From Dolichospermum flos-aquae CCAP 1403/13F (GTDB lineage: Bacteria > Cyanobacteriota > Cyanobacteriia > Cyanobacteriales > Nostocaceae), in the NCBI RefSeq assembly GCF_012516395.1, contig NZ_CP051206.1, forward strand, positions 1,780,501 to 1,844,500: 64,000 nt of DNA, in the 5' to 3' direction. Position numbers and translations under genes: made by a program. This document shows, in pieces, positions 30,496 to 38,710 of this stretch. A model generated the notes under the pieces. That model did not search any database, was not told where the DNA came from, and was given only the letters and a program-made list of their open reading frames with translations. Every line of letters begins with the position of its first letter. Positions within the stretch are counted from its first letter, which is position 1.

Positions 30496-30603
30496 ATGTC
30501 TAAGGAAAAAAAAGGTAATAAAGAAACTAAAAAGCCTAAGAAAGATGCCAAGGACAAAAAAGAGAAAAAAGACCCAAACAGATATGATGGTTTAGGCAAG
30601 TAA
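30496..30603 (+). CDS. 35-aa lysine-rich small protein
   Basis: ATG 30496 to TAA 30601-30603. Begins MSKEKKGNKETKKPKKDAK and ends DPNRYDGLGK. Nearly half the residues are Lys; the uncharged ending looks conserved rather than random. Could be a nucleic-acid-associated small protein. No clear ribosome site. The gap 30199-30495 before it holds nothing recognisable. Confidence 0.45.
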   Translation: MSKEKKGNKETKKPKKDAKDKKEKKDPNRYDGLGK

Positions 30604-30865
30604 GAAATAGCAAGCAAATTCCTGAGAATTTCTTGTAGGGTATAACAAGGGTTTTAGGCTCACAGATTAATGGAATTATCCGTGTAGATAGATGGATAAT
30701 TCCATATTTTCGCTCAATGATCATCATAAGTTACAGATGCTTTTTTACAGGGCTGTTTTTGAGTGATTTTAGTGTTATCGTACCAGTTTTAACAGATATC
30801 AAACCATTGATTTATCAAGGTTTTAGGTTTATATGGTTAACTCCACGCTAATGATTAAACCCTAA

Positions 30866-31027
30866 GAGGTTGTTTGAAAAGTATTAGATGAAACCAACAA
30901 TCTCCGAAACCTAACCCCCCTTCCCCCCTTCCCTACAAGGGAATGGGGGTTTCAAAGCCTCTCCCCGCGTCGGGGAGAGGTTTGGAGAGGGGTTTATTGA
31001 TACATTAAAAACTTTTCAAACATCCTC
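30866..31027. mobile_element. MITE copy 2, 162 bp
   Basis: Ends GAGGTTGTTTGAAAAGT and the complement of ACTTTTCAAACATCCTC; TAA duplicated at 30863-30865 and 31028-31030. The interior contains a CTCTCCCCGCGTCGGGGAGAG hairpin, so it belongs to the same subtype as copy 3. Lies 23 bp outside the left end of the Tn7-like element. Confidence 0.85.
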
Positions 31028-31050
31028 TAAATAAACTTCAACTCTAATTA

Positions 31051-31205
31051 TGTGACTTTACCCATAACTTTGCCGCTACTGGAAGCATAACTTTGCCGTC
31101 AACAACATTATAACCCTCATTCTTGCGTCAGCTAATTTTGGATGAAACTGACAGTTTGGAATCATAACTTTGCCGCTAGTCCAAATTGGAAGGATAAGCT
31201 TGCCG
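31051..31205 (+). promoter_or_regulatory. left end of the Tn7-like element: four TnsB-like sites
   Basis: The terminal repeat 31051-31076 contains CCCATAACTTTGCCG. Further sites in the same orientation: GGAAGCATAACTTTGCCG at 31081-31098, GGAATCATAACTTTGCCG at 31158-31175 and GGAAGGATAAGCTTGCCG at 31188-31205. Spacing of sites resembles the left end of Tn7. Confidence 0.7.
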
Positions 31206-31390
31206 TGAGTCCATTTAAGCATAGTAAGCTGGAAAGCGGAGATTTCTTATAGAATGGAGCAGAAGCGGTTCGTGCTGGTATGGCATAGAAACTTTCATCC
31301 ATCTGTAAATTTCCATCTATGACAGCAGTATTAATTCAGAGTGAGGAATAATTTAACCAATTATTTTACAATCGAGAAGGATTCATATTT

Positions 31391-31800
31391 ATGGCGGAGA
31401 ATAGTGAAGAAGATAAGAATTATCTGATTTTTATTAAGGTATTTCAGCAAGCGATGAAAGGAAACTTTGCTAAAATGTATGCCAAAGCAGAAGCAGGAAA
31501 AGACCCTCCAATTAAGAAGAAGGTTGAACGATTAAAAGCAGAGCTAAACAATTGTTATGATGAATTGTCTTTTAAGGAATATTTATCAGATTTTTTAGTG
31601 AGAGGGGGATTAAATAGGTATTTTAATCAGCATCAAGAAGAAGTTTCACTACTTATTAAAAAAACACCTTGACAAGAATTAAGAATTTGGTCTTTGTTGG
31701 CGATCGCTAGTTATAAACCCAAGGATAAACCCACCATTATTGATGATAGTTCATTACCAAACAATCAACAACTAGAAGAAATAGATGTTGTTATCTTTGG
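31391..31800 (+). pseudogene. broken gene, possible Cas8-like C-terminal fragment
   Basis: Frame 31391-31672 (MAENSEEDKNYLIF...RGGLNRYFNQHQEEVSLLIKKTP) ends at TGA 31670-31672. The same frame then continues QELRIWSLLAIASYKPKDKP... to about 31797, so one CGA-to-TGA-type nonsense probably splits it. Helical, charged. The family is not certain: position just before the Cas5-like gene and the 'FKEYLSDFLVRGGLNRYF' style suggest the large subunit of a type I Cascade. I hold this only as a hypothesis. GAGAAGGA lies before ATG 31391. Confidence 0.35.
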
Positions 31801-31841
31801 TAGGGGAAACAGATGTTTATCGCCACTGTGGGGTAGAATTG

Positions 31842-31870
31842 GCGATAGCGAAGCGCTCCGTAGGAATCGC
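31842..31870. repeat. 29-bp HIP-type palindromic repeat inserted in-frame in the Cas5-like gene
   Basis: GCGATAGCGAAGCGCTCCG...AATCGC is the exact complement of the core found at about 62027 and close to those at 57.2, 58.1 and 60.9-61.1 kb. It adds about seven codons (KRSVGIA) without breaking the frame. Confidence 0.75.
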
Positions 31871-32040
31871 TATGTTGTCTAGTCCCAAAAAGTCACAAAT
31901 TTTGCGTCAAATGAGACGGTTTAAGAATGCTGATTTTAGCCATCCAGAGAATGTTATTCCCTGTTATCAAGAAATTTTGTCTAATCTAAAATGTTTGATT
32001 TGGGTTCGTTCTGAAGGGGAGAAGATACAACCAAGTTTAA

Positions 32041-32203
32041 GAGGTTGTTTGAAAAGTATCAGATGAAACCCATAATCTCCAAAAACCTAACCCCCCTGCC
32101 CCCCTTCCCTACCAGGGAATGGGGTTTTCAAAGCCTCTCCCCGCGTCGGGGAGAGGTTTGGAGAGGGGTCAATTTATACATTCAAAACTTTTCAAACATC
32201 CTC
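32041..32203. mobile_element. MITE copy 3, 163 bp, in the Cas5-like gene
   Basis: Ends GAGGTTGTTTGAAAAGT / ACTTTTCAAACATCCTC complement; TAA at 32038-32040 and 32204-32206. Very similar to copy 2. Precise removal restores the host frame, so this was a recent clean insertion. Confidence 0.9.
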
Positions 32204-32525
32204 TAAGGGAGAGGATACAGTTAGCGTTTGACTATCCTGAGAGAGTAAAACGGTTTGGTTGTTTATTTTTGGGAGAAAGTGACAAGTTGATTAAAACGAT
32301 CAAAATTGTTGCGGAAGATTATCTAAAAGGGGTGAGACGGTGGTCAATTAGGGATAATAGAGGTAAGTTAACTTTACCCTATTGGGTTGATCATGTGGGG
32401 TCAAGAAATACCCGATTTTTGAGGTATCGGATTGAGGAAATACCAAGTTCACCACCTCCTGATTTGGCGTGGACGATGATTCAATCTCCAAGTTGAAACC
32501 TCAGTTATTAGTGATTCGTGGCTTG

Positions 32526-32553
32526 ATGCCGTTAGGCGATCGCCTAACGGCAT
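32526..32553. repeat. 28-bp perfect palindrome centred on HIP1
   Basis: ATGCCGTTAGGCGATCGCCTAACGGCAT is self-complementary in full, with GCGATCGC at its centre. Confidence 0.85.
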
Positions 32554-32554
32554 T

Positions 32555-32736
32555 CCTACACTAACAAAGTGATTATTATATTTAGCTTCAATTACTGCCA
32601 GTGGTACACCGGGTTTGTAATACAGCACATAATCTCCTGCGACTGTTGATAAATGCGTAAGCAGCCGCAGGCATCGTGACAGAAAAAGCATTGCAGCTAA
32701 TTGTCCTTTATTTGATGTACTATCAATATTTAGCAA
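32555..32736 (-). pseudogene. remnant of a type I restriction HsdR N-terminal domain
   Basis: A short minus-strand frame carries GDYVLYYKPGVPLAVIEAK followed by YNNHFVSVGMP, which matches the conserved core of HsdR N-terminal nuclease domains (the IEAK is the ExK of the active site). Both sides are unrelated sequence (the palindrome at 32526 and AT-rich DNA), so only about 60 codons survive. It shows that the element once also held, or received, an R-M locus. Confidence 0.5.
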
Positions 32737-32765
32737 ATCACAATATATAGTTTAAAACATAGTAT

Positions 32766-33140
32766 ATGAGAAACTTTGAATTAGTAATTAGAGGCACAGG
32801 TGCTGAGGAAGCAGCAAAAGATTTAAACCAATTATTAGCAGACGTTGGCATATCAGGTACTCTAGATGTTCCTGATGAAGTAAAGCAAAAGACAAAAGCC
32901 GAGCCTATTGAGGCCATAATCCTTAGTTTTGTACTTAATGTTACAGCATCGGTTGTAGCAGACAGAATCAATGAGTTTATTCGCCAGCATGATCGCAGCC
33001 GCTCTAATAACACCAATATTGAGTATATAATCTTTAAAAATAAGAGTGAAAGAAAAAGAGAGCAAATTTCCTTCCCGCTTGATGACCCACAAAATACATC
33101 AGAAAAAGTTAATAAAGTTTTAGAAGATGAAGATTTTTAA
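32766..33140 (+). CDS. 124-aa protein upstream of the CHAT-STAND gene, unknown
   Basis: Starts MRNFELVIRGTGAEEAAKDL, with a ferredoxin-like beta-alpha start, has a moderately hydrophobic stretch (IEAIILSFVLNVTASVVADRI) and a charged C-terminal tail (SEKVNKVLEDEDF). Lies 105 bp before the CHAT gene on the same strand, so the two probably form an operon. It resembles small effector-associated partners that accompany CHAT and TIR proteins, but no family can be named with certainty. Confidence 0.55.
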   Translation: MRNFELVIRGTGAEEAAKDLNQLLADVGISGTLDVPDEVKQKTKAEPIEAIILSFVLNVTASVVADRINEFIRQHDRSRSNNTNIEYIIFKNKSERKREQISFPLDDPQNTSEKVNKVLEDEDF

Positions 33141-33245
33141 TTAATGTAAATTGCTAAAGGGGAGACAGAAAAGTTAGTCTCACCCCCTTATCACATAGGG
33201 ATTATAAATAGGCCAAATTTGAAATACCAAAATGACTGACTGGAA

Positions 33246-34856
33246 ATGCCAATTTTACATATAGACCTCAGAAAAATAGATAATAATTACGTTGAATTAC
33301 GTTACTTTCGGGATAATCCTAATCAGTACGATTCCCGTCAGGTTTCCTTAAACGAAATACAACAACAAATTAATCTGATAAACAGGGACTATTACGAAGA
33401 TTACAATATACAACCAGAAGATTATGCCAGAATAGGTCAGGTACTTTATAATTTCTTGGATGGGAGTGAACGTTTCCTTCAAAAAGCTATAGATGAGTAT
33501 AGCCGTGATGGTCTTGTGCTTGCTATTGCTACATCCGAAGAACTAGCTCATCTACCTTGGGAAATTCTACATGATGGTAAAAAGTTTTTGGTAGAAAAAA
33601 AACCAGGTATTATTCTTCCATTACGATGGAACCCTGATAAGAGCAACCCATTAGAAGAACAGAATCAGCCAAAAAATAGTGCGCTGAATGTCTTGTTTAT
33701 GGCGACTTCCCCAATAGATTCCAACTTACCAGAGCTAGATTTTGAAGAAGAAGAAGCACGCATTTTAAAGGCAACATCTGGCAAACCCTTATCTTTAATT
33801 GTAGAAGAAAGCGGTTGTCTGGAAGAAATGCATAGTTTGATTGAAACTTATTACCAGCGTAATTACTTTGATGTCTTTCATCTGACTGGTCATACAGGTG
33901 AAAAAGATGGAAATACCTACTTTATCACGGAAACAGAATTAGGAGAAAAAAAGTATAGCAGCGCAGAAGATATTGCTGAGGCACTGGGATTCCCAATGCC
34001 AAAATTGATTTTCCTCTGTGGCTGTCAGACCGGATATTCTCCACGCAAAGGGACAGTTCAATCAATGGCAGAAGCTCTATTAATGGAAGGAGCAAATGCT
34101 GTTCTAGGTTGGGGTAAGAAAGTTTCAGATAAAGATGCAACGGAAGCAGCAGCAAATTTATACGAAAAGTTATCAGGAGGGTATACAGTCATTGAAGCAA
34201 TTGCCACAACTTACCGCACATTAATTAAAAATAAAGCAACAGGTTGGCACTTGTTGCGATTTTATGTGGCTAAAACTCTACCAGGACAATTAGTTGAAAG
34301 AGGACAAGAATCCATCCCTCGTAATTCTTTTACTACCGAGTTCTTCGACTCTGAAGGGAAAGTTAGAGTTGCTAATCGTGAGAGCTTTATTGGTCGTCGT
34401 CGTCAATTACAAAATTGCCTACGGAGTCTCAAAATATCTTCAAGCGAGATTGGTGTTTTAATTCACGGCATGGGAGGATTAGGCAAAAGTACCATTGCCG
34501 CTCGACTATGTGACCGATTATCTGGGCATAAGAAAATAGTTTGGTGGCGACAAATTGATGAACCTAGCTTAGTCAAGAAGTTGGCAGACCATCTCCAATC
34601 TCAAGAACAACGAACACTACTTAGAGGAAATCAAGAAGAACTAAAACAGCGATTAAAAAGAGCTTTCAATACTTTGGGGCGATCCGTTCTGGTATTTGAT
34701 GACTTTGAATGGAATTTAAAACCTCGTGATCAAGGCTATGTTCTCAACCCTGATGCTGCTGAAGTATTGAGTGCTTTAATATGGGCAATTAGAAACCAAG
34801 AAAATATTACTCATCACCGTATTATTATCACATCTCGTTATGACTTTGAATTCTAA
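33246..34856 (+). CDS. CHAT-protease / STAND NTPase protein, N-terminal part (frameshifted)
   Basis: 536 residues. A CHAT (caspase-like) peptidase domain covers about 1-345 with catalytic His in HLTGH (about 211) and Cys in FLCGCQTG (about 255). A STAND/NB-ARC-like NTPase follows: P-loop GMGGLGKST (about 408-416), Walker B VLVFDDF, and IIITSRYDFEF at the end. The frame stops at 34854-34856, exactly where the NTPase continues in another frame from 34840. Known: CHAT-NTPase fusions act as NLR-like immune or death effectors in bacteria. Here it is cargo of the Tn7-like element. Confidence 0.8.
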   Translation: MPILHIDLRKIDNNYVELRYFRDNPNQYDSRQVSLNEIQQQINLINRDYYEDYNIQPEDYARIGQVLYNFLDGSERFLQKAIDEYSRDGLVLAIATSEELAHLPWEILHDGKKFLVEKKPGIILPLRWNPDKSNPLEEQNQPKNSALNVLFMATSPIDSNLPELDFEEEEARILKATSGKPLSLIVEESGCLEEMHSLIETYYQRNYFDVFHLTGHTGEKDGNTYFITETELGEKKYSSAEDIAEALGFPMPKLIFLCGCQTGYSPRKGTVQSMAEALLMEGANAVLGWGKKVSDKDATEAAANLYEKLSGGYTVIEAIATTYRTLIKNKATGWHLLRFYVAKTLPGQLVERGQESIPRNSFTTEFFDSEGKVRVANRESFIGRRRQLQNCLRSLKISSSEIGVLIHGMGGLGKSTIAARLCDRLSGHKKIVWWRQIDEPSLVKKLADHLQSQEQRTLLRGNQEELKQRLKRAFNTLGRSVLVFDDFEWNLKPRDQGYVLNPDAAEVLSALIWAIRNQENITHHRIIITSRYDFEF

Positions 34857-36123
34857 TAATTTATCCAAAAGCTTCTATAAGCAACCATTAGAAAGCTTTC
34901 AAAACACTGATTTACAAAAGAAGCTAAACAAACTAAGCAACTTTAATTCTAATAACATTGATAAGGAGTTAATTGACCGAGCTTTAAGACTTGCTGATGG
35001 CAATCCTCGTTTATTGGAATGGTTAGATGGAGAAGTGCTATCACAGAGAGATGCAGATTCACAAATCCGTGAATTTGAATTTAACTCTGAAGGTTGGAGA
35101 CAAAGGGTTATTTGGGAAAGAGAAGACACTGCTAGATTAAACATAGACCGGTCTATTGAGAGAATTGTCAGTAGATGCTTGGTATTTGAAATTCCTGTTC
35201 CTTTGTCAGCATTAGAAGCTGTTTGTCACTCTATTGATGATTCTAAACAACTCTTAAATAAAGCAATTGCACTAGGACTGATAGAAGTAAATTCGGAACG
35301 AGAAGAATCTAATCGACTTTATCGAGTTTCCCGCATCATACCTCACATTATTCCCAATATCCAACTGCCTGAAGCACCAAAAGTTTATTCTCTCTACCAA
35401 AAAGCTAATGAAAGCTTATATCAGTTATGGGGTAATGAAGAGAACCACAGCAAAGAAAAATGGCAAGAAATTTTTCGGTTGAAATTCGCCAATAGGGAAA
35501 ATCCTGAACGATTCAGGCAAGGCTTTGCTCAGCTGTTGGCAGTTCAACATAACTCAGAAGCTGATCAAGTTTTTGAATTTAAATTGAGAAAATGTGCTGA
35601 TGATTTGGTAGAAGATGGATTATGTGAAGTATTGGCAAATTATCTGAAGCAGAAACAGTGGCGAAAGGCAGACGAGGAAACAGCTTGGATTTTTTACCAA
35701 GTCATGGTTAAAGGAAAATATGAAGATTGGTACGATTTGTTAGATCAATTTCCCTGTGAAACTCTCAAGAAAATTGATCAACTCTGGCTTGACAATAGTA
35801 ACAATACATTGGGTATTAGCATCCAGAGTAGAATTTACCAGAGTCTAAGTGGAGAGAAAAAATGGGAACAGTTTTGCGATCGGGTTTGGGGATCGGGAAA
35901 ATCGTATAATGAGATAATCAGGGACATAGGGAAGAAGATGATACCAGGGGCATCATCAGGAACATCAGCATACTTACCAGTATCAATTTATACCAAGTAT
36001 TATGTTAAAGGATTAGGAGACTGTGGGTGGGGAGTGGGAGTGGTGTTCGGAGAAGATATGGTGGTGGGGGTTGGGGACTTGGGGTGGGGTGGGGACTCTC
36101 TTCTCTCGCGCAGAGACTTGTAG
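34840..36123 (+). CDS. C-terminal part of the CHAT-STAND protein, 3' end damaged
   Basis: 427 residues. SFYKQPLESFQNTDLQKKLNKL...DRALRLADGNPRLLEWLDGE is the ARC/winged-helix continuation of the STAND module; then a helical sensor region (KKWEQFCDRVW). From about residue 385 the sequence becomes Gly-rich filler (GDCGWGVGVVFGEDM) produced by low-complexity DNA, so the true 3' end is lost. It overlaps the previous frame by 17 nt (ATG inside TTATGACT). Most likely one gene with a 1-nt frameshift; translational coupling of two subunits is the alternative. Confidence 0.7.
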   Translation: MTLNSNNLSKSFYKQPLESFQNTDLQKKLNKLSNFNSNNIDKELIDRALRLADGNPRLLEWLDGEVLSQRDADSQIREFEFNSEGWRQRVIWEREDTARLNIDRSIERIVSRCLVFEIPVPLSALEAVCHSIDDSKQLLNKAIALGLIEVNSEREESNRLYRVSRIIPHIIPNIQLPEAPKVYSLYQKANESLYQLWGNEENHSKEKWQEIFRLKFANRENPERFRQGFAQLLAVQHNSEADQVFEFKLRKCADDLVEDGLCEVLANYLKQKQWRKADEETAWIFYQVMVKGKYEDWYDLLDQFPCETLKKIDQLWLDNSNNTLGISIQSRIYQSLSGEKKWEQFCDRVWGSGKSYNEIIRDIGKKMIPGASSGTSAYLPVSIYTKYYVKGLGDCGWGVGVVFGEDMVVGVGDLGWGGDSLLSRRDL

Positions 36124-36470
36124 AGTGTAGTTAACTCTTCTAAAACAGTGACTAACTTTGCTGTCATTTCTCGCATTCCGTTGATAGCTGGTTTAGCGTC
36201 GCTATTTCCCAATAGGTGACTTAGATTTTTTGACAATAGCTCAGATTTATCCTCATCTTTGAGAATAAGTGGCGCAATTTCTCCCATAACGAGCTTTTGA
36301 GAAGTTAAACAATGCGCTTGCGCTAAACGATGGAGATAACTACTAAGACTTTCTGTGTAGGGAGTTCCCACCGCCACAGGTTCAAGGGAAAATAACCGAC
36401 TCCGTGGCGGGATTTCTGGAGGTTTTAGGCTCCAATGTTCTGAGTAAATAGTCATTCCTCTGGGATTCAC
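36000..36470 (-). pseudogene. tniQ: TniQ/TnsD-family N-terminal fragment
   Basis: From 36470 (or ATG 36455) the frame reads MTIYSEHWSLKPPEIPPRSR, then LFSLEPVAVGTPYTESLSSY, LHRLAQAHCLTSQKLVMGEI, the opening of the TniQ domain. In Tn7-like and CRISPR-associated transposons TniQ/TnsD recognises the target (att DNA or Cascade). After about 120 residues it runs into a Pro/Ser/Thr low-complexity tail (36000-36110) and stops; the zinc-ribbon core and C-terminal DNA-binding region are absent. It is fused tail to tail with the damaged CHAT gene. This is the best single marker of the element's identity. Confidence 0.75.
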
Positions 36471-36500
36471 CTCAACGCTGGTACTTTGGGTTTAAAAGCC

Positions 36501-36615
36501 TTTACCCCCCTTATGAAGGGGGGAAATAATAAAATCCAGTTCCCTCCCCTTAACAAGGGGAGGGTTAGGGAGGGGTAAAAATATTTGATACATCAATTAT
36601 TTTTCAAACACCCTC
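36501..36615. mobile_element. MITE copy 4, truncated
   Basis: The complement begins GAGGGTGTTTGAAAAATAAT and follows the interior of copy 1 (GATGTATCAAATATTTTTACC, CCCTCCCCTTGTTAAGGGG) in inverse orientation. The far end is missing beyond TTTACCCCCC at 36501. TTA follows at 36616-36618. Confidence 0.75.
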
Positions 36616-36643
36616 TTAGAGAAGCGAATCGTGAACTTGAGTT

Positions 36644-36990
36644 TTGACACTCTCAGGGAAGACAGCCACTGAGATTCTACTGACAGAATTAAATTAAGAG
36701 TTTAGCTCAATCTAATCTCGCTGCGACCGTCAAACGCCGCCTAAACGCTCAAAACAACTGCCAATCAAGGTGTCGAAATTGCGCTTACTTTTATGGTTTT
36801 CAGTGTTTTTAGAATCCATCACTAAGCCAAGACGCGGTACGCTCCACAACCTGCCATTACTCGCTCTTTCAAGTCAATACTGCCGTTAGGACTTAAACCT
36901 AACCGTTGTTTCATAGGAGCCGGAATTTCTCCGTACTAGGATGCTTCAACACGTAGATGTTTTTTGTTCTTACTCACAATTTAATTCTAA
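36644..36990 (-). pseudogene. right-end remnant of a second TnpB (IS200/IS605-type) element
   Basis: The minus strand ends with AGAATCTCAGTGGC...CCCTGAGAGTGTCAA (36644-36679), the form of IS605/TnpB right ends where the omega-RNA scaffold meets the guide. Upstream are short broken frames (MKQRLGLSPNGSIDLKERVM... and KSKRNFDTLIGSCFERLGG), with stops between. No TnpB catalytic motif survives. Inside the Tn7-like element. Confidence 0.4.
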
Positions 36991-37100
36991 CATACCACAG
37001 GGATTAAAATCCCTCGTGCCGTTTCCCTCTCAGGTCTAAAGACGCGCTCGTTTCCCACTTACCGCGAGGTCTTATGAAGCTTAAAAATTACCCATGAATT

Positions 37101-37173
37101 GGAACCATAACTTTGCCAATTTCTATTGGAAGCATAAGTTTGCCGTCGCGGCAAAGTTATGGGTAAAGTCACA
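37101..37173 (-). promoter_or_regulatory. right end of the Tn7-like element: TnsB-like sites
   Basis: Terminal repeat 37148-37173, reading TGTGACTTTACCC inward on the minus strand. Two inner sites, GGAACCATAACTTTGCCA (37101-37118) and GGAAGCATAAGTTTGCCG (37128-37145), point the other way, in the same orientation as the left-end sites. Such mixed orientation is unusual. Confidence 0.65.
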
Positions 37174-37204
37174 GAAAGCTAAACTTGAAAATATTATAAT
37201 CTAA

Positions 37205-37277
37205 TGGAGCTAAGCGGATTCGAACCGCTGACCCCCTCAATGCCATTGAGGTGCGCTACCAACTGCGCTATAACCCC
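37205..37277 (-). tRNA. tRNA-Ala (GGC)
   Basis: A 73-nt cloverleaf: acceptor GGGGTTA pairing with TAGCTCC, D arm GCGC...GCGC, anticodon stem CCTCA/TGAGG with loop ATGGCAT (anticodon GGC), T arm GCGGTTCGAATCCGC. CCA is not encoded. Attachment gene of the Tn7-like element, which ends 31 bp beyond its 3' end. Confidence 0.95.
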
Positions 37278-37699
37278 GAAATTCCAATGCAGTAAGCTTT
37301 TTGGCTTATTGGTTAGTTCTTTTATTTGTCTCTTTTGTGATTATACATTAATCTATGTCAATTCAGTCAAGAAAGTTATATTAAGAAATATTAAGCAGCA
37401 AATTAACCTTGACACCGATAAACCAAAACAAAAAAAATAGATGTGGTTTTCAACCTAATTAATCTCCAACCGCCTAGAATCATGCTGGAGAACATGAAAA
37501 AAAGGCTAGTACCGCAGTGCGGAATTAAAAATTAAAAATTAAAAATTAAAAAAGCAGATTACACAAGCTTTTGTCAAATTTTTAATGGTTGATTGACTTA
37601 CGCCATTGTGTACTAGGGAAATGTTTATTTGATAGCTGAATGCTGACAGTTACGCAATAGGACTGCTATAGTAATTTAATCATATTTTTGCAAATACTT
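37278..37699. other. 422-bp intergenic region upstream of the methyltransferase
   Basis: Holds the tRNA-Ala promoter side, a run of AATTAAAA repeats (37523-37552) and AT-rich DNA. An open frame overlapping the tRNA (37204-37440) is spurious. No other gene seen. Confidence 0.5.
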
Positions 37700-38710
37700 A
37701 TGGCAGCAAATAAATTCTTGAAAAATATCATTATTAAACTACTGACTGGGGGATCAAAACCAGAGTATGCTCCACAGACTAGTCAACTAACTTTAGCAGA
37801 TGCGATCGCCAAAATTGACGGGCTTTTTGATTGTGAGGCTGTTTTAAAAGAATTTGATGCAGATGCTACCATATCTTACTACACCCAAAGCGAGTGGGGT
37901 TATCAAATCTATCACTCTGGACAAGATGCTATCCACATGGCATTAAACCCTGATGGTATATTTGACCCAGATGGTTATTATGCTCAACCACGAGTAGTTG
38001 CTGAACAAATTCATAAACTTGATGCCAAGACCGTTTTAGAATTAGGATGTGGTAAAGGATTTAATAGCTGTTTTTTAGCGCAGCAGTATCCAGAAGTACA
38101 TTTCACCGGAATTGATTTAACACCATCGCATATTAAAATAGCACGTCGCAAAGCCGATAAATTTTCTAATCTATCTTTTCAAGAAGGTAACTTTAATCGC
38201 CTAAACTTTTTAGATCAATCCTTTGATATTGTTTTTGCCTTTGAGTGTTTATGTCACGCCTCTGAAGCAGAAACACCACTGGCAGAAATTTTTCGGGTGC
38301 TGCGTCCAGGTGGACAATTAATTATCTTCGATGGTTATCGTAAAATTAAGTTTACACAACTCCCTAAATTACTGCAAACCGCAACTCAACTTGTAGAAAT
38401 ATCAATGGCAGTTCGTCATGGATTTTCAGAAATTAATGATTGGAATGCTATCGTCCAATCAATTGGCTTTCAAATTCAAACTATTGAAGATATTTCTTTA
38501 GCAATTCAGCCGACATTATTAAAATTACAAAAATTATCCTGGAAACTTTTTTCCTTGTCTTGGCAAGTCAAAATACTTATTTATTTGTTACCTAAATATT
38601 TAATTAGAAATTCAATCGCTGGTCTTTTAATGCCTTTTACTGTCAGTCCTAAAGGGGAAGCTTTTGGATATTATAAATTAATCTTAGAACGACCTTTAGA
38701 AGAGAGTTAA
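37700..38710 (+). CDS. class I SAM-dependent methyltransferase
   Basis: 336 residues. A Rossmann methylase core in the middle: VLELGCGKGFNSCFLAQQ (motif I), FTGIDLTPSHI (acidic loop), FDIVFAFECLCHA (motif II) and RVLRPGGQLIIFDGY (motif III). The C-terminal 120 residues are hydrophobic/helical. The pattern resembles small-molecule C- or O-methylases (sterol/tocopherol-type fold); substrate unknown. ATG 37700 (MAANKF) is preferred over TTG 37688. Confidence 0.8.
   Translation: MAANKFLKNIIIKLLTGGSKPEYAPQTSQLTLADAIAKIDGLFDCEAVLKEFDADATISYYTQSEWGYQIYHSGQDAIHMALNPDGIFDPDGYYAQPRVVAEQIHKLDAKTVLELGCGKGFNSCFLAQQYPEVHFTGIDLTPSHIKIARRKADKFSNLSFQEGNFNRLNFLDQSFDIVFAFECLCHASEAETPLAEIFRVLRPGGQLIIFDGYRKIKFTQLPKLLQTATQLVEISMAVRHGFSEINDWNAIVQSIGFQIQTIEDISLAIQPTLLKLQKLSWKLFSLSWQVKILIYLLPKYLIRNSIAGLLMPFTVSPKGEAFGYYKLILERPLEES

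Follow-up and report, generated by a model that had tools for sequence, protein, structure and literature searches.

The analyzed window is a stretch of 64,000 bp of Dolichospermum flos-aquae CCAP 1403/13F (contig NZ_CP051206.1). Its region 31051-37173, situated next to a tRNA-Ala(GGC) gene, is bounded by inverted repeats and retains (i) pieces of cas6, cas8/cas11, cas5 and tniQ, (ii) one partial CRISPR repeat, (iii) the end of tnsD and (iv) a group of putative cargo ORFs. The features of the region are presented in Table 1, in which L034 and L151 denote intact relatives found in genomes G066 and G018, respectively.

Table 1. Features identified within the region 31051-37173 of the window and the adjacent tRNA gene.
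Feature	Position	Strand	Basis
Left end, 26-bp terminal inverted repeat	31051..31076	+	26/26 identical to reverse complement of 37148-37173
Putative TnsB-type sites of left end (31063, 31086, 31163, weaker ~31193)	31063..31205	+	repeat family D2, motif scan
cas6 5' remnant, 44 bp	31307..31350	+	91% identity to L034 18800-18757
cas8 3' part including cas11 reading frame, stop-interrupted	31351..31780	+	88% to L034
cas5 remnant, residues 39-211	31784..32496	+	8fcj_A (Cas5) matches in both pieces
Single partial CRISPR repeat, 28 nt	32511..32538	+	14 bp after cas5 end
Small EACC1-like ORF (by analogy), 124 aa	32766..33140	+	resembles 109-aa ORF directly before CHAT in L151
CHAT protease-like + STAND/NB-ARC NTPase, N-terminal part of frame-broken gene	33246..34856	+	Pfam
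C-terminal part, GUN4-like domain, other frame	34840..36123	+	Pfam GUN4 6e-15
tniQ remnant, residues 1-109 of 329	36129..36455	-	92% identical to L034 TniQ
tnsD last 35 bp	36613..36647	+	94% identical to L034 431-397, tnsD 3' end
424-bp repeat after tnsD remnant	36648..37071	.	absent from L034; multicopy in own genome
Putative TnsB-type sites of right end (37106 +, 37133 +, 37149 -)	37106..37161	.	motif scan
Right end, 26-bp terminal inverted repeat	37148..37173	-	26/26 identical to left-end repeat
tRNA-Ala(GGC), attachment gene	37205..37277	-	ARAGORN; Rfam RF00005 64.3 bits

The first-pass annotation of this DNA had described perfect 26-bp inverted ends, repeated sites within both of them and a distance of 31 bp between the right end and the 3' end of the tRNA gene, and all three observations were reproduced. 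A motif scan allowing one mismatch revealed six CATAACTTTGCCG-type sites (31063, 31086, 31163, 37106 and 37133, as well as 37149 on the minus strand), which are of the TnsB type and are predicted to be bound by TnsB. The segment 31046-31296 shares 89% identity with the left end of L034. A 24-base end pattern (up to 2 mismatches) was found in 32 of 150 genomes, including that of the host, and the backward control pattern in none (0/150); its occurrence is therefore not a matter of chance. Among the 30 loci fetched from the 53 places where such an end is located, 16 have the end 26-32 bp after a tRNA gene (Ala, Val, Thr or Leu). A spacing of 30-33 nt has been described for the homing of the I-D CyCAST (PMC10293859).

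The cas part of the region had been annotated as a Cas5-like pseudogene. The presence of cas5 was confirmed, but the segment comprises two genes, i.e. the 3' part of cas8 with cas11, followed by cas5. Comparison with PDB entries revealed that the ORF 31391-31672 corresponds to residues 1-93 of the 138-residue Cas11 of PDB 8fcj (E=5.5e-52), and that two pieces, 31784-32041 (E=2.7e-42) and 32204-32496 (E=1.1e-52), match Cas5 of the same entry; they are separated by a repeat insertion at ~32042-32203. The corresponding TIGRFAM matches, TIGR03486 for the cas8/cas11 part (E=7.8e-8) and TIGR02586 (cas5_cmx5_devS) for the cas5 pieces (3.2e-6 and 2.1e-11), all lie under their curated cut-offs. Of the I-B Cascade genes, cas6, cas8/cas11 and cas5 are thus present only as fragments and cas7 is deleted. 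The partial CRISPR repeat is 100% identical to the repeats of L034 and is contained within those of L151; it has one exact match in its own genome, and its 21-nt core has one match in the window, compared with 0.00 expected. In the G066 and G018 elements the first CRISPR repeat lies 248 bp after cas5, and not 14 bp as in the window; the leaderless cas5-to-repeat junction is shared by two sister relics.

A tniQ-like N-terminal fragment had been proposed to lie beside the right end. This assignment was upheld by Pfam TniQ (E=2.9e-7; 31.6 bits versus a cut-off of 27) and by TniQ of PDB 8fcu (E=7.5e-62); the PADLOC profile TniQ_IB (2.1e-15) also matched, and the fragment is of the I-B form. Of tnsD, only the very 3' end has been left in the window. 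The adjacent 424-bp repeat has three other full-length copies of ~100% identity, and 34 matching places occur in the genome (36648..37071 included); it is a later insertion and no part of the transposon.

A search with the ends for full-length relatives identified elements encoding a fused TnsAB, TnsC, TnsD, TniQ and Cas6-8-7-5. One of them, L034 (18.9 kb), is intact, is inserted at the same tRNA gene and is bounded by the same ends, and the order of all pieces surviving in the window is collinear with it. Another, in G018 (L151/L152/L157), is an intact 33.3-kb I-B2 CRISPR-associated transposon (CAST) located at tRNA-Val(GAC) and flanked by a perfect 5-bp duplication, TAAAT; several positions of its left end deviate from the 24-base pattern. 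Both agree with the window in their ends, gene order and tRNA spacing, but differ from it in having intact machinery. Based on these comparisons, we conclude, with a probability of about 0.9, that the region 31051-37173 constitutes the remains of a type I-B2 CAST inserted downstream of tRNA-Ala(GGC), as the first-pass annotation had supposed in calling it a probably CRISPR-associated Tn7-like relic homed at this gene. Since TnsAB and TnsC are missing from the window, the subtype assignment rests on the surviving pieces and the relatives, and it is the gene content of the full-length relatives with the same ends that allows the name I-B2 to be used.

One of the related elements, L035 (G030), has the same terminal repeats, tnsAB, tnsC and tnsD, and lacks cas genes and a tniQ of its own, its single TniQ-like match being the tnsD frame. 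The presence of such ends is thus not sufficient to identify a CAST, and the proof comes from the cas and tniQ pieces. L035 might point to a different kind of Tn7-like element, such as a TnsD-only element whose cas genes are ordinary cargo, an I-B1 CAST or an I-D CAST, the last of which also combines a tRNA-targeting TnsD with a fused TnsAB (PMC11406308). Such an origin is highly improbable: the cas pieces are of the I-B/MYXAN type, TniQ is of the I-B form and 92% identical to that of L034, and the gene order matches both L034 and the G018 element.

The element was also expected to be non-autonomous, having lost tnsABC and most cas genes, and this agrees with our results. No tnsAB, tnsC or cas7 was found in 31051-37173; elsewhere in the genome TnsAB had no match at E<=1e-30, and TnsC had none in the genome at E<=0.001 in a search that contained no internal positive control. 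By inference from the family, TnsD would have bound the tRNA gene and set the right end ~31 bp downstream of the 3' end of this gene, TnsAB would have cut and joined the ends, TnsC would have linked them, and the RNA-guided route would have relied on TniQ together with Cascade (Cas5, Cas6, Cas7, Cas8/11). Deletions following the insertion eliminated tnsAB, tnsC and cas7, almost the whole of tnsD and the greater part of tniQ, cas6 and cas8, and repeats entered cas5 and the site beside the tnsD remnant. The relic is no longer able to mobilize itself; its ends could in principle serve a related TnsABC(D) in trans, but the above searches of this genome found no TnsAB or TnsC match.

The arrival of the region as one unit was not confirmed, as its borders carry no target site duplication (AATTA at 31046-31050 versus GAAAG at 37174-37178). 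No empty tRNA-Ala site was found among 15 congeners: the two flanks share a contig in 4 of them (0.25-2.1 Mb apart) and are on separate contigs in 10; for the remaining one tRNA-Ala is not listed. The missing duplication and the distant flanks would suit a chimaera, in which the left end and cas part derive from one insertion, the right end stems from a different insertion at tRNA-Ala, both being of the same CAST family, and recombination that also rearranged the chromosome joined the two. The 69 bases of the left end are 97% identical to those of tRNA-Val(TAC) elements of congeners G003 and G015 (also G007), compared with 90% and 94% for the tRNA-Ala elements of G066 and G075, and, of the loci compared, only the tRNA-Ala elements L034 and L046 match positions 37072-37104, inside the right end. 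However, the 69 bases of the right end do not separate the tRNA types (91% G019, Val; 90% G075, Ala, and G024, Val; 88% G066, Ala), the host's own tRNA-Val(TAC) site is unoccupied (an empty site was found for the sister relic at tRNA-Val(TAC)), and no third end was found in the genome. Moreover, every surviving piece fits one intact element in order and orientation, and duplications are absent from most elements examined: of the seven compared (the window, G066, G030, G019, G134, G018 and G075), only G018 has a perfect one, G066 is off by one base and the other five have none. We therefore regard a chimaeric origin as unlikely and a single I-B2 insertion as the preferred explanation.

The cargo contains two fragments of one frame-broken gene. 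The first matches CHAT (4.8e-21), a domain belonging to the caspase clan, as well as AAA_16 (1e-9) and NB-ARC (1.3e-8), and is 60% identical to an intact 943-aa ORF of L151; the second shares 66% identity with the same ORF and has the same C-terminal residues. The preceding 124-aa ORF is 26% identical to its L151 counterpart (E=3e-4, single comparison), and neither it nor the ORFs of two relatives had a Pfam match at the thresholds used. The G018 CAST carries two CHAT-STAND-GUN4 modules (intact ORFs of 943 and 960 aa; CHAT 3.1e-23) between the cas genes and tniQ, i.e. in the same interval as in the window. The cargo is probably an abortive-infection-type pair, comprised of an EACC1-like small component and a CHAT protease under the presumed control of a STAND NTPase, with a GUN4 domain at the C-terminus. 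The earlier view that the relic had kept an immune cargo thus holds with a qualification: a probable defence pair is present, but its main gene, being frame-broken, is probably either non-functional or reduced to a pair of fragments. The same break makes it rather doubtful that the element is a domesticated defence island, retained for the protection that the pair continues to give the cell. In favour of this view, the small 5' ORF is open, the CHAT-STAND half retains 536 residues with all three domain matches, the reading frame of the second half extends to the C-terminus of the family and an intact CAST carries the module as well; the halves, however, lie in different frames, against long uninterrupted ORFs in G018.

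A wider scenario may be put forward only tentatively. Loss of the CRISPR leader in an Anabaena-clade sublineage of I-B2 CASTs might have brought the array directly next to cas5. The sublineage would then have dispersed solely through homing to tRNA genes, in part in the form of shortened derivatives mobilized in trans. Three relics would be products of this phase, namely the region 31051-37173 (tRNA-Ala), one in G005 (tRNA-Val) and one in Anabaena catenula, and the CHAT-STAND-GUN4 pair would be an interchangeable defence cargo found repeatedly in I-B2 CASTs. The region represents an end stage of an RNA-guided transposon: the core genes for transposition and the majority of the cas genes have disappeared, while the two ends, a scar of the CRISPR repeat and a probable defence cargo are still found next to the tRNA gene. 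Together with the sister relics and intact elements it forms a graded series, from 33 kb intact to derivatives of ~1 kb, which allows one to ask whether remnants of CASTs are mobilized again in trans and whether a defence cargo survives the loss of the element that carried it.

The CHAT-STAND-GUN4 pair extends the range of cargo observed in I-B2 CASTs. In the collection of papers searched, none contained both "GUN4" and "Tn7"; among the matches listed, one combined "CHAT domain", "Tn7-like" and "CRISPR-associated transpos" (PMC10028731, on Csx29), and according to its abstract its topic is not transposon cargo. The layout resembles the EACC1-caspase two-gene conflict system of Kaur et al. 2020 (PMC7159879), in which a small 5' gene encoding a single membrane helix precedes a caspase-domain gene with variable parts. 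The same paper mentions GUN4 among the domains of conflict systems in cyanobacteria, and "CHAT" does not occur in its main text (PMC7159879). The name "EACC1-like" reflects our reading of an analogy in size, position and a hydrophobic stretch; the likeness is one of layout only, the small ORF of the window having no Pfam match of its own.

The TniQ, Cas11 and Cas5 pieces match chains of a solved type I-B CAST of Nostoc sp. 'Peltigera membranacea cyanobiont' 210A (8fcu, 8fcj), which we take to be PmcCAST. I-B2 elements combine a fused TnsAB with a tRNA-targeting TnsD (PMC11406308). PmcCAST (Tn7744, type I-B2) and the region 31051-37173 have in common that they attach at a tRNA gene, tRNA-Val on the PmcCAST target plasmid (PMC10293859) and tRNA-Ala(GGC) in the window, and the region differs in lacking tnsAB, tnsC, almost all of tnsD, cas7 and most of cas6/cas8. 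The element is therefore derived from a known kind, that of PmcCAST, of which it is no longer a working member.

A complete element of 18.9 kb (locus L034 of genome G066) lies beside tRNA-Ala(GGC) between two ends of the kind that bound the relic, and its order is: tRNA, end, tnsD, tnsC, fused tnsAB, tniQ, cargo, CRISPR repeats, cas5, cas7, cas8, cas6 and end. From the reading of its ORFs, its cargo may be restriction-modification-like. The pieces present in the window match this element in the same order and orientation (see table), and the TniQ, Cas11 and Cas5 pieces match by sequence the chains of the solved type I-B CRISPR-associated transposon (CAST) of Nostoc sp. 'Peltigera membranacea cyanobiont' 210A. 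According to PMC11406308, type I-B2 (PmcCAST) is characterized by a fused TnsAB and a TnsD that targets a tRNA. The first-pass annotation, which described a Tn7-like, CRISPR-associated relic and called for full-length relatives with the same ends, was therefore correct: L034 is such a relative, and the collinearity, the matches to the solved CAST and the published description allow the relic to be named as I-B2.

Positions of the described features (window coordinates unless a locus or contig is named) and identity to the intact element L034
Feature	Position	Identity to L034 (BLAST)
Relic	31051-37173	
Left end		89%
cas6, first 44 matching bp (all that survives)		91%
cas8, 3' part		88%
cas5, two parts		87% and 89%
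CRISPR repeat		one, partial
tniQ		92%
tnsD, last 35 bp (all that survives)		94%
Right end and tRNA		84%
MITE-like repeat, two copies	30862-31030 and 32038-32206	
Stretch partly similar to the MITE-like repeat	near 36585-36622	
Palindrome at the CRISPR repeat remnant	32526-32553	
424-bp repeat	36648-37071	
Second TniQ-family frame (L095)	G000:C1:2838228-2838581	
Element with the same terminal repeats (G030)	L035 753-9913	
Relic of G005 (L163)	G005:C1:1807500-1827400	
Fused cas frame of A. catenula, contig88	L194 3914-6280	
1-kb derivative (G019)	L038 605-1723	
tnsD-like stretch (G006)	L143 from 9549	
Small ORF and CHAT-STAND pair (G069)	L155 14544-19988	
Stretch spanning the frame break of the cargo gene	34800-34900	
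Intact cargo module of G018	L151 9272-12435	

As first noted, the two termini of the relic are identical across 26 bases, repeated CATAACTTTGCCG-type sites are present inside both ends, and a 31-bp gap separates the right end from the 3' end of tRNA-Ala(GGC). This tRNA was the sole Rfam match over window 30500-38000. The 24-base end (≤2 mismatches) is present in 32 of 150 genomes, the native one counted, and its backward control pattern in none of the 150. This search listed 53 places, from which 30 loci were retrieved. Sixteen of them have an end located 26-32 bp beyond a tRNA (Ala-GGC, Val-GAC, Val-TAC, Thr-TGT or Leu-TAA). The remaining 14, which include the left end of the relic itself (L018), have no tRNA at such spacing. 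In L019 and L021 a tRNA-Val is present in the opposite sense, the end there being the distal one of a short element. An I-B2 CAST could not be recognized from its terminal repeats alone, because L035 of G030 carries them around tnsAB, tnsC and tnsD without a cas match or a separate tniQ; no tRNA was found within this locus, which is either a non-CRISPR relative or a derivative.

The relic lacks tnsAB, tnsC and cas7. Of tniQ the first 109 residues survive, a stop interrupts the cas11 frame, and cas5 has lost its first 38 residues and contains a 21-bp in-frame addition and a repeat insertion. Full-length copies of the genes broken here are present in G066 and G018. Mobilization in trans from the same genome was considered and rejected, since no match to TnsAB was found there at E≤1e-30 (38 of the 150 genomes have one) and none to TnsC at E≤0.001, in a search run without an internal positive control. 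A second TniQ-family frame (181 aa), located away from the relic, may belong to a type V-K element, as we suspect from its size.

Several repeats were observed in and around the relic. The 424-bp repeat that follows the tnsD remnant has three other full-length, approximately 100% identical copies in the genome (34 matching places in total), and its appearance suggests a non-autonomous insertion sequence that was active recently. The two copies of the MITE-like repeat (94% identity over 124 nt), which has AGAGGTTGTTTGAAAAGT-type inverted ends, are placed just outside the left end and inside cas5. The CRISPR repeat remnant continues into a perfect 28-bp palindrome, its inner part recurring in inverted orientation around GCGATCGC.

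Comparison with G066 and outgroups, with sites at which the outgroups disagree dropped, assigned 67 changes to the window branch, distributed over codon positions 1:2:3 as 16:15:36 (position-3 excess 36/67, p=4.6e-4); this branch includes a part common to G005 and Anabaena catenula, both left out of the count. The corresponding figures for the G066 branch are 10:4:17 (p=0.011). The position-3 excess argues that coding constraint lasted for much of the window branch and that decay was comparatively recent; judged from these substitutions, it is young relative to the split from G066.

No target-site duplication flanks the relic (AATTA versus GAAAG). Among seven elements compared, G018 has a perfect duplication, that of G066 is off by one, and the other five have none (the window, G030, G019, G134 and G075, the ends of the last being located on two contigs). 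A position could be assigned to the left flank in each of the 15 congeners and to tRNA-Ala in 14 (G004 was not among the matches listed), and the respective stretches were fetched from nine and ten of the 15. None of the fetched neighbourhoods joins the flanks at an empty tRNA-Ala site, an adjacency that short draft contigs could hide. The left flank is conserved up to approximately 30670-30705 (nine stretches), the sequence following tRNA-Ala varies among species, being alike only in a few close ones, and in the four congeners with both on one contig they are 0.25-2.1 Mb apart. Compared over 69 bases in each case, the left end shows 97% identity to the tRNA-Val elements of congeners and 90-94% to tRNA-Ala elements. 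The missing duplication, the split flanks and the likeness of the left end therefore sustain a live rival, in which the left end with the cas part and the right end come from two insertions joined by recombination. However, the right end, tried as a mark of tRNA type, does not separate the types over the same 69 bases, so that this rival weighs less and seems to us rather improbable. We prefer to read the interval as one decayed I-B2 CAST.

A second I-B2 CAST relic of the genus was identified at tRNA-Val(TAC) in congener G005. It comprises cas6 and cas8 fragments, an in-frame cas8-cas7 fusion ORF (272 aa), cas5 and one CRISPR repeat; its right end, which is degraded and separated from the tRNA by 30 bp, adjoins a gene that we take to be Uma2-like. 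The tRNA-Val(TAC) site of CCAP 1403/13F is unoccupied, with matching flanks, and G005 has about 3.9 kb more there; an empty-site comparison thus exists for the G005 relic. On contig88 of A. catenula FACHB-362, parts of cas6, cas8 and cas7 form, via deletions, one 488-aa frame; next come cas5 (212 aa) and a CRISPR array of four repeats that lacks the leader stretch normally present. No end within 5 mismatches and no tRNA were found on this contig. Over 525 bases, cas5 of the window shows 95.0% identity to G005, 95.4% to A. catenula, 91.6% to G066 and 91.0% to G018. The first repeat is located 14 bp after cas5 in the window, G005 and A. catenula, versus 248 bp in G066 and G018. A contig scan with 26 bases across this junction, in which the genomes closest to the window may be omitted, yielded a single record, A. 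catenula. On the 3' side of cas8, the deletions of the window and G005 begin only a few bases apart but end at different places; a common deletion was therefore rejected, and the one feature regarded as shared is the cas5-to-repeat junction.

Shorter Uma2-bearing derivatives, with a left end at the same tRNA-Val, occur in G003, G010, G015 and probably G007, where the contig stops. Derivatives of about 1 kb with CAST-family end(s) around a Uma2-like gene at tRNA-Val(TAC) were observed in L038, which retains two perfect 24-bp ends, and in L047-L050. A stretch beside tRNA-Ala(GGC) in G006 resembles, by eye, the 3' end of tnsD, and is perhaps a further, almost erased relic.

As cargo the relic carries, between cas5 and tniQ, an ORF of 124 aa together with a CHAT-STAND/NB-ARC-GUN4 gene split over two frames. 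G018 has an intact I-B2 CAST of 33.3 kb at tRNA-Val(GAC) with a perfect 5-bp duplication; the cargo in the same interval of this element includes two modules of this kind, each composed of a 109-aa ORF followed by a CHAT-STAND-GUN4 protein (943 or 960 aa). The two halves of the window gene share 60% and 66% identity with the first copy, and 50% and 57% with the second. Homologs of the CHAT-STAND half (E≤1e-60) are present in 26 of the 100 genomes searched, the native one counted. Among 11 other fetched loci (L121-L131, with L127 and L131 cut short by the locus end), the GUN4 part is matched beyond residue 400 in two, within the first 221 residues at most in eight, and not at all in one. In the CHAT tree the window groups with G033 (86/87), apart from the G018 copies, and the window and one G018 row form long branches; an origin of the cargo from a G018-like CAST is not supported by this tree. 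A small ORF and CHAT-STAND pair, its CHAT gene also broken and with a possibly TPR-like C-terminus as read, was observed in G069, at most about 5.5 kb away from an end located at tRNA-Ala(GGC).

The layout of the cargo resembles the EACC1-caspase pair of PMC7159879. Since Pfam gave no match for the small ORF at the thresholds applied, its assignment as EACC1 was dropped and kept as an analogy. PADLOC found the GUN4 region similar to PD-T4-6 (2.5e-18); at 0.01 it matched nothing in the CHAT half. Because the likeness to EACC1 concerns layout and PADLOC matches the GUN4 region rather than the CHAT half, we infer only that the cargo may function in defence. Literature searches combining GUN4 with Tn7 gave no match, so that a GUN4 cargo is undescribed within the literature covered, and neither it nor this relic was described among the matches listed (10 of 110) for CHAT domain with Tn7-like or CAST terms. 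Among the matches listed for CAST remnants in cyanobacteria, none gave an account of this relic, as judged by title or abstract. Since TnsAB and TnsC are missing, it is not a working member of the I-B2 (PmcCAST) group; it is a decayed derivative of this known kind.
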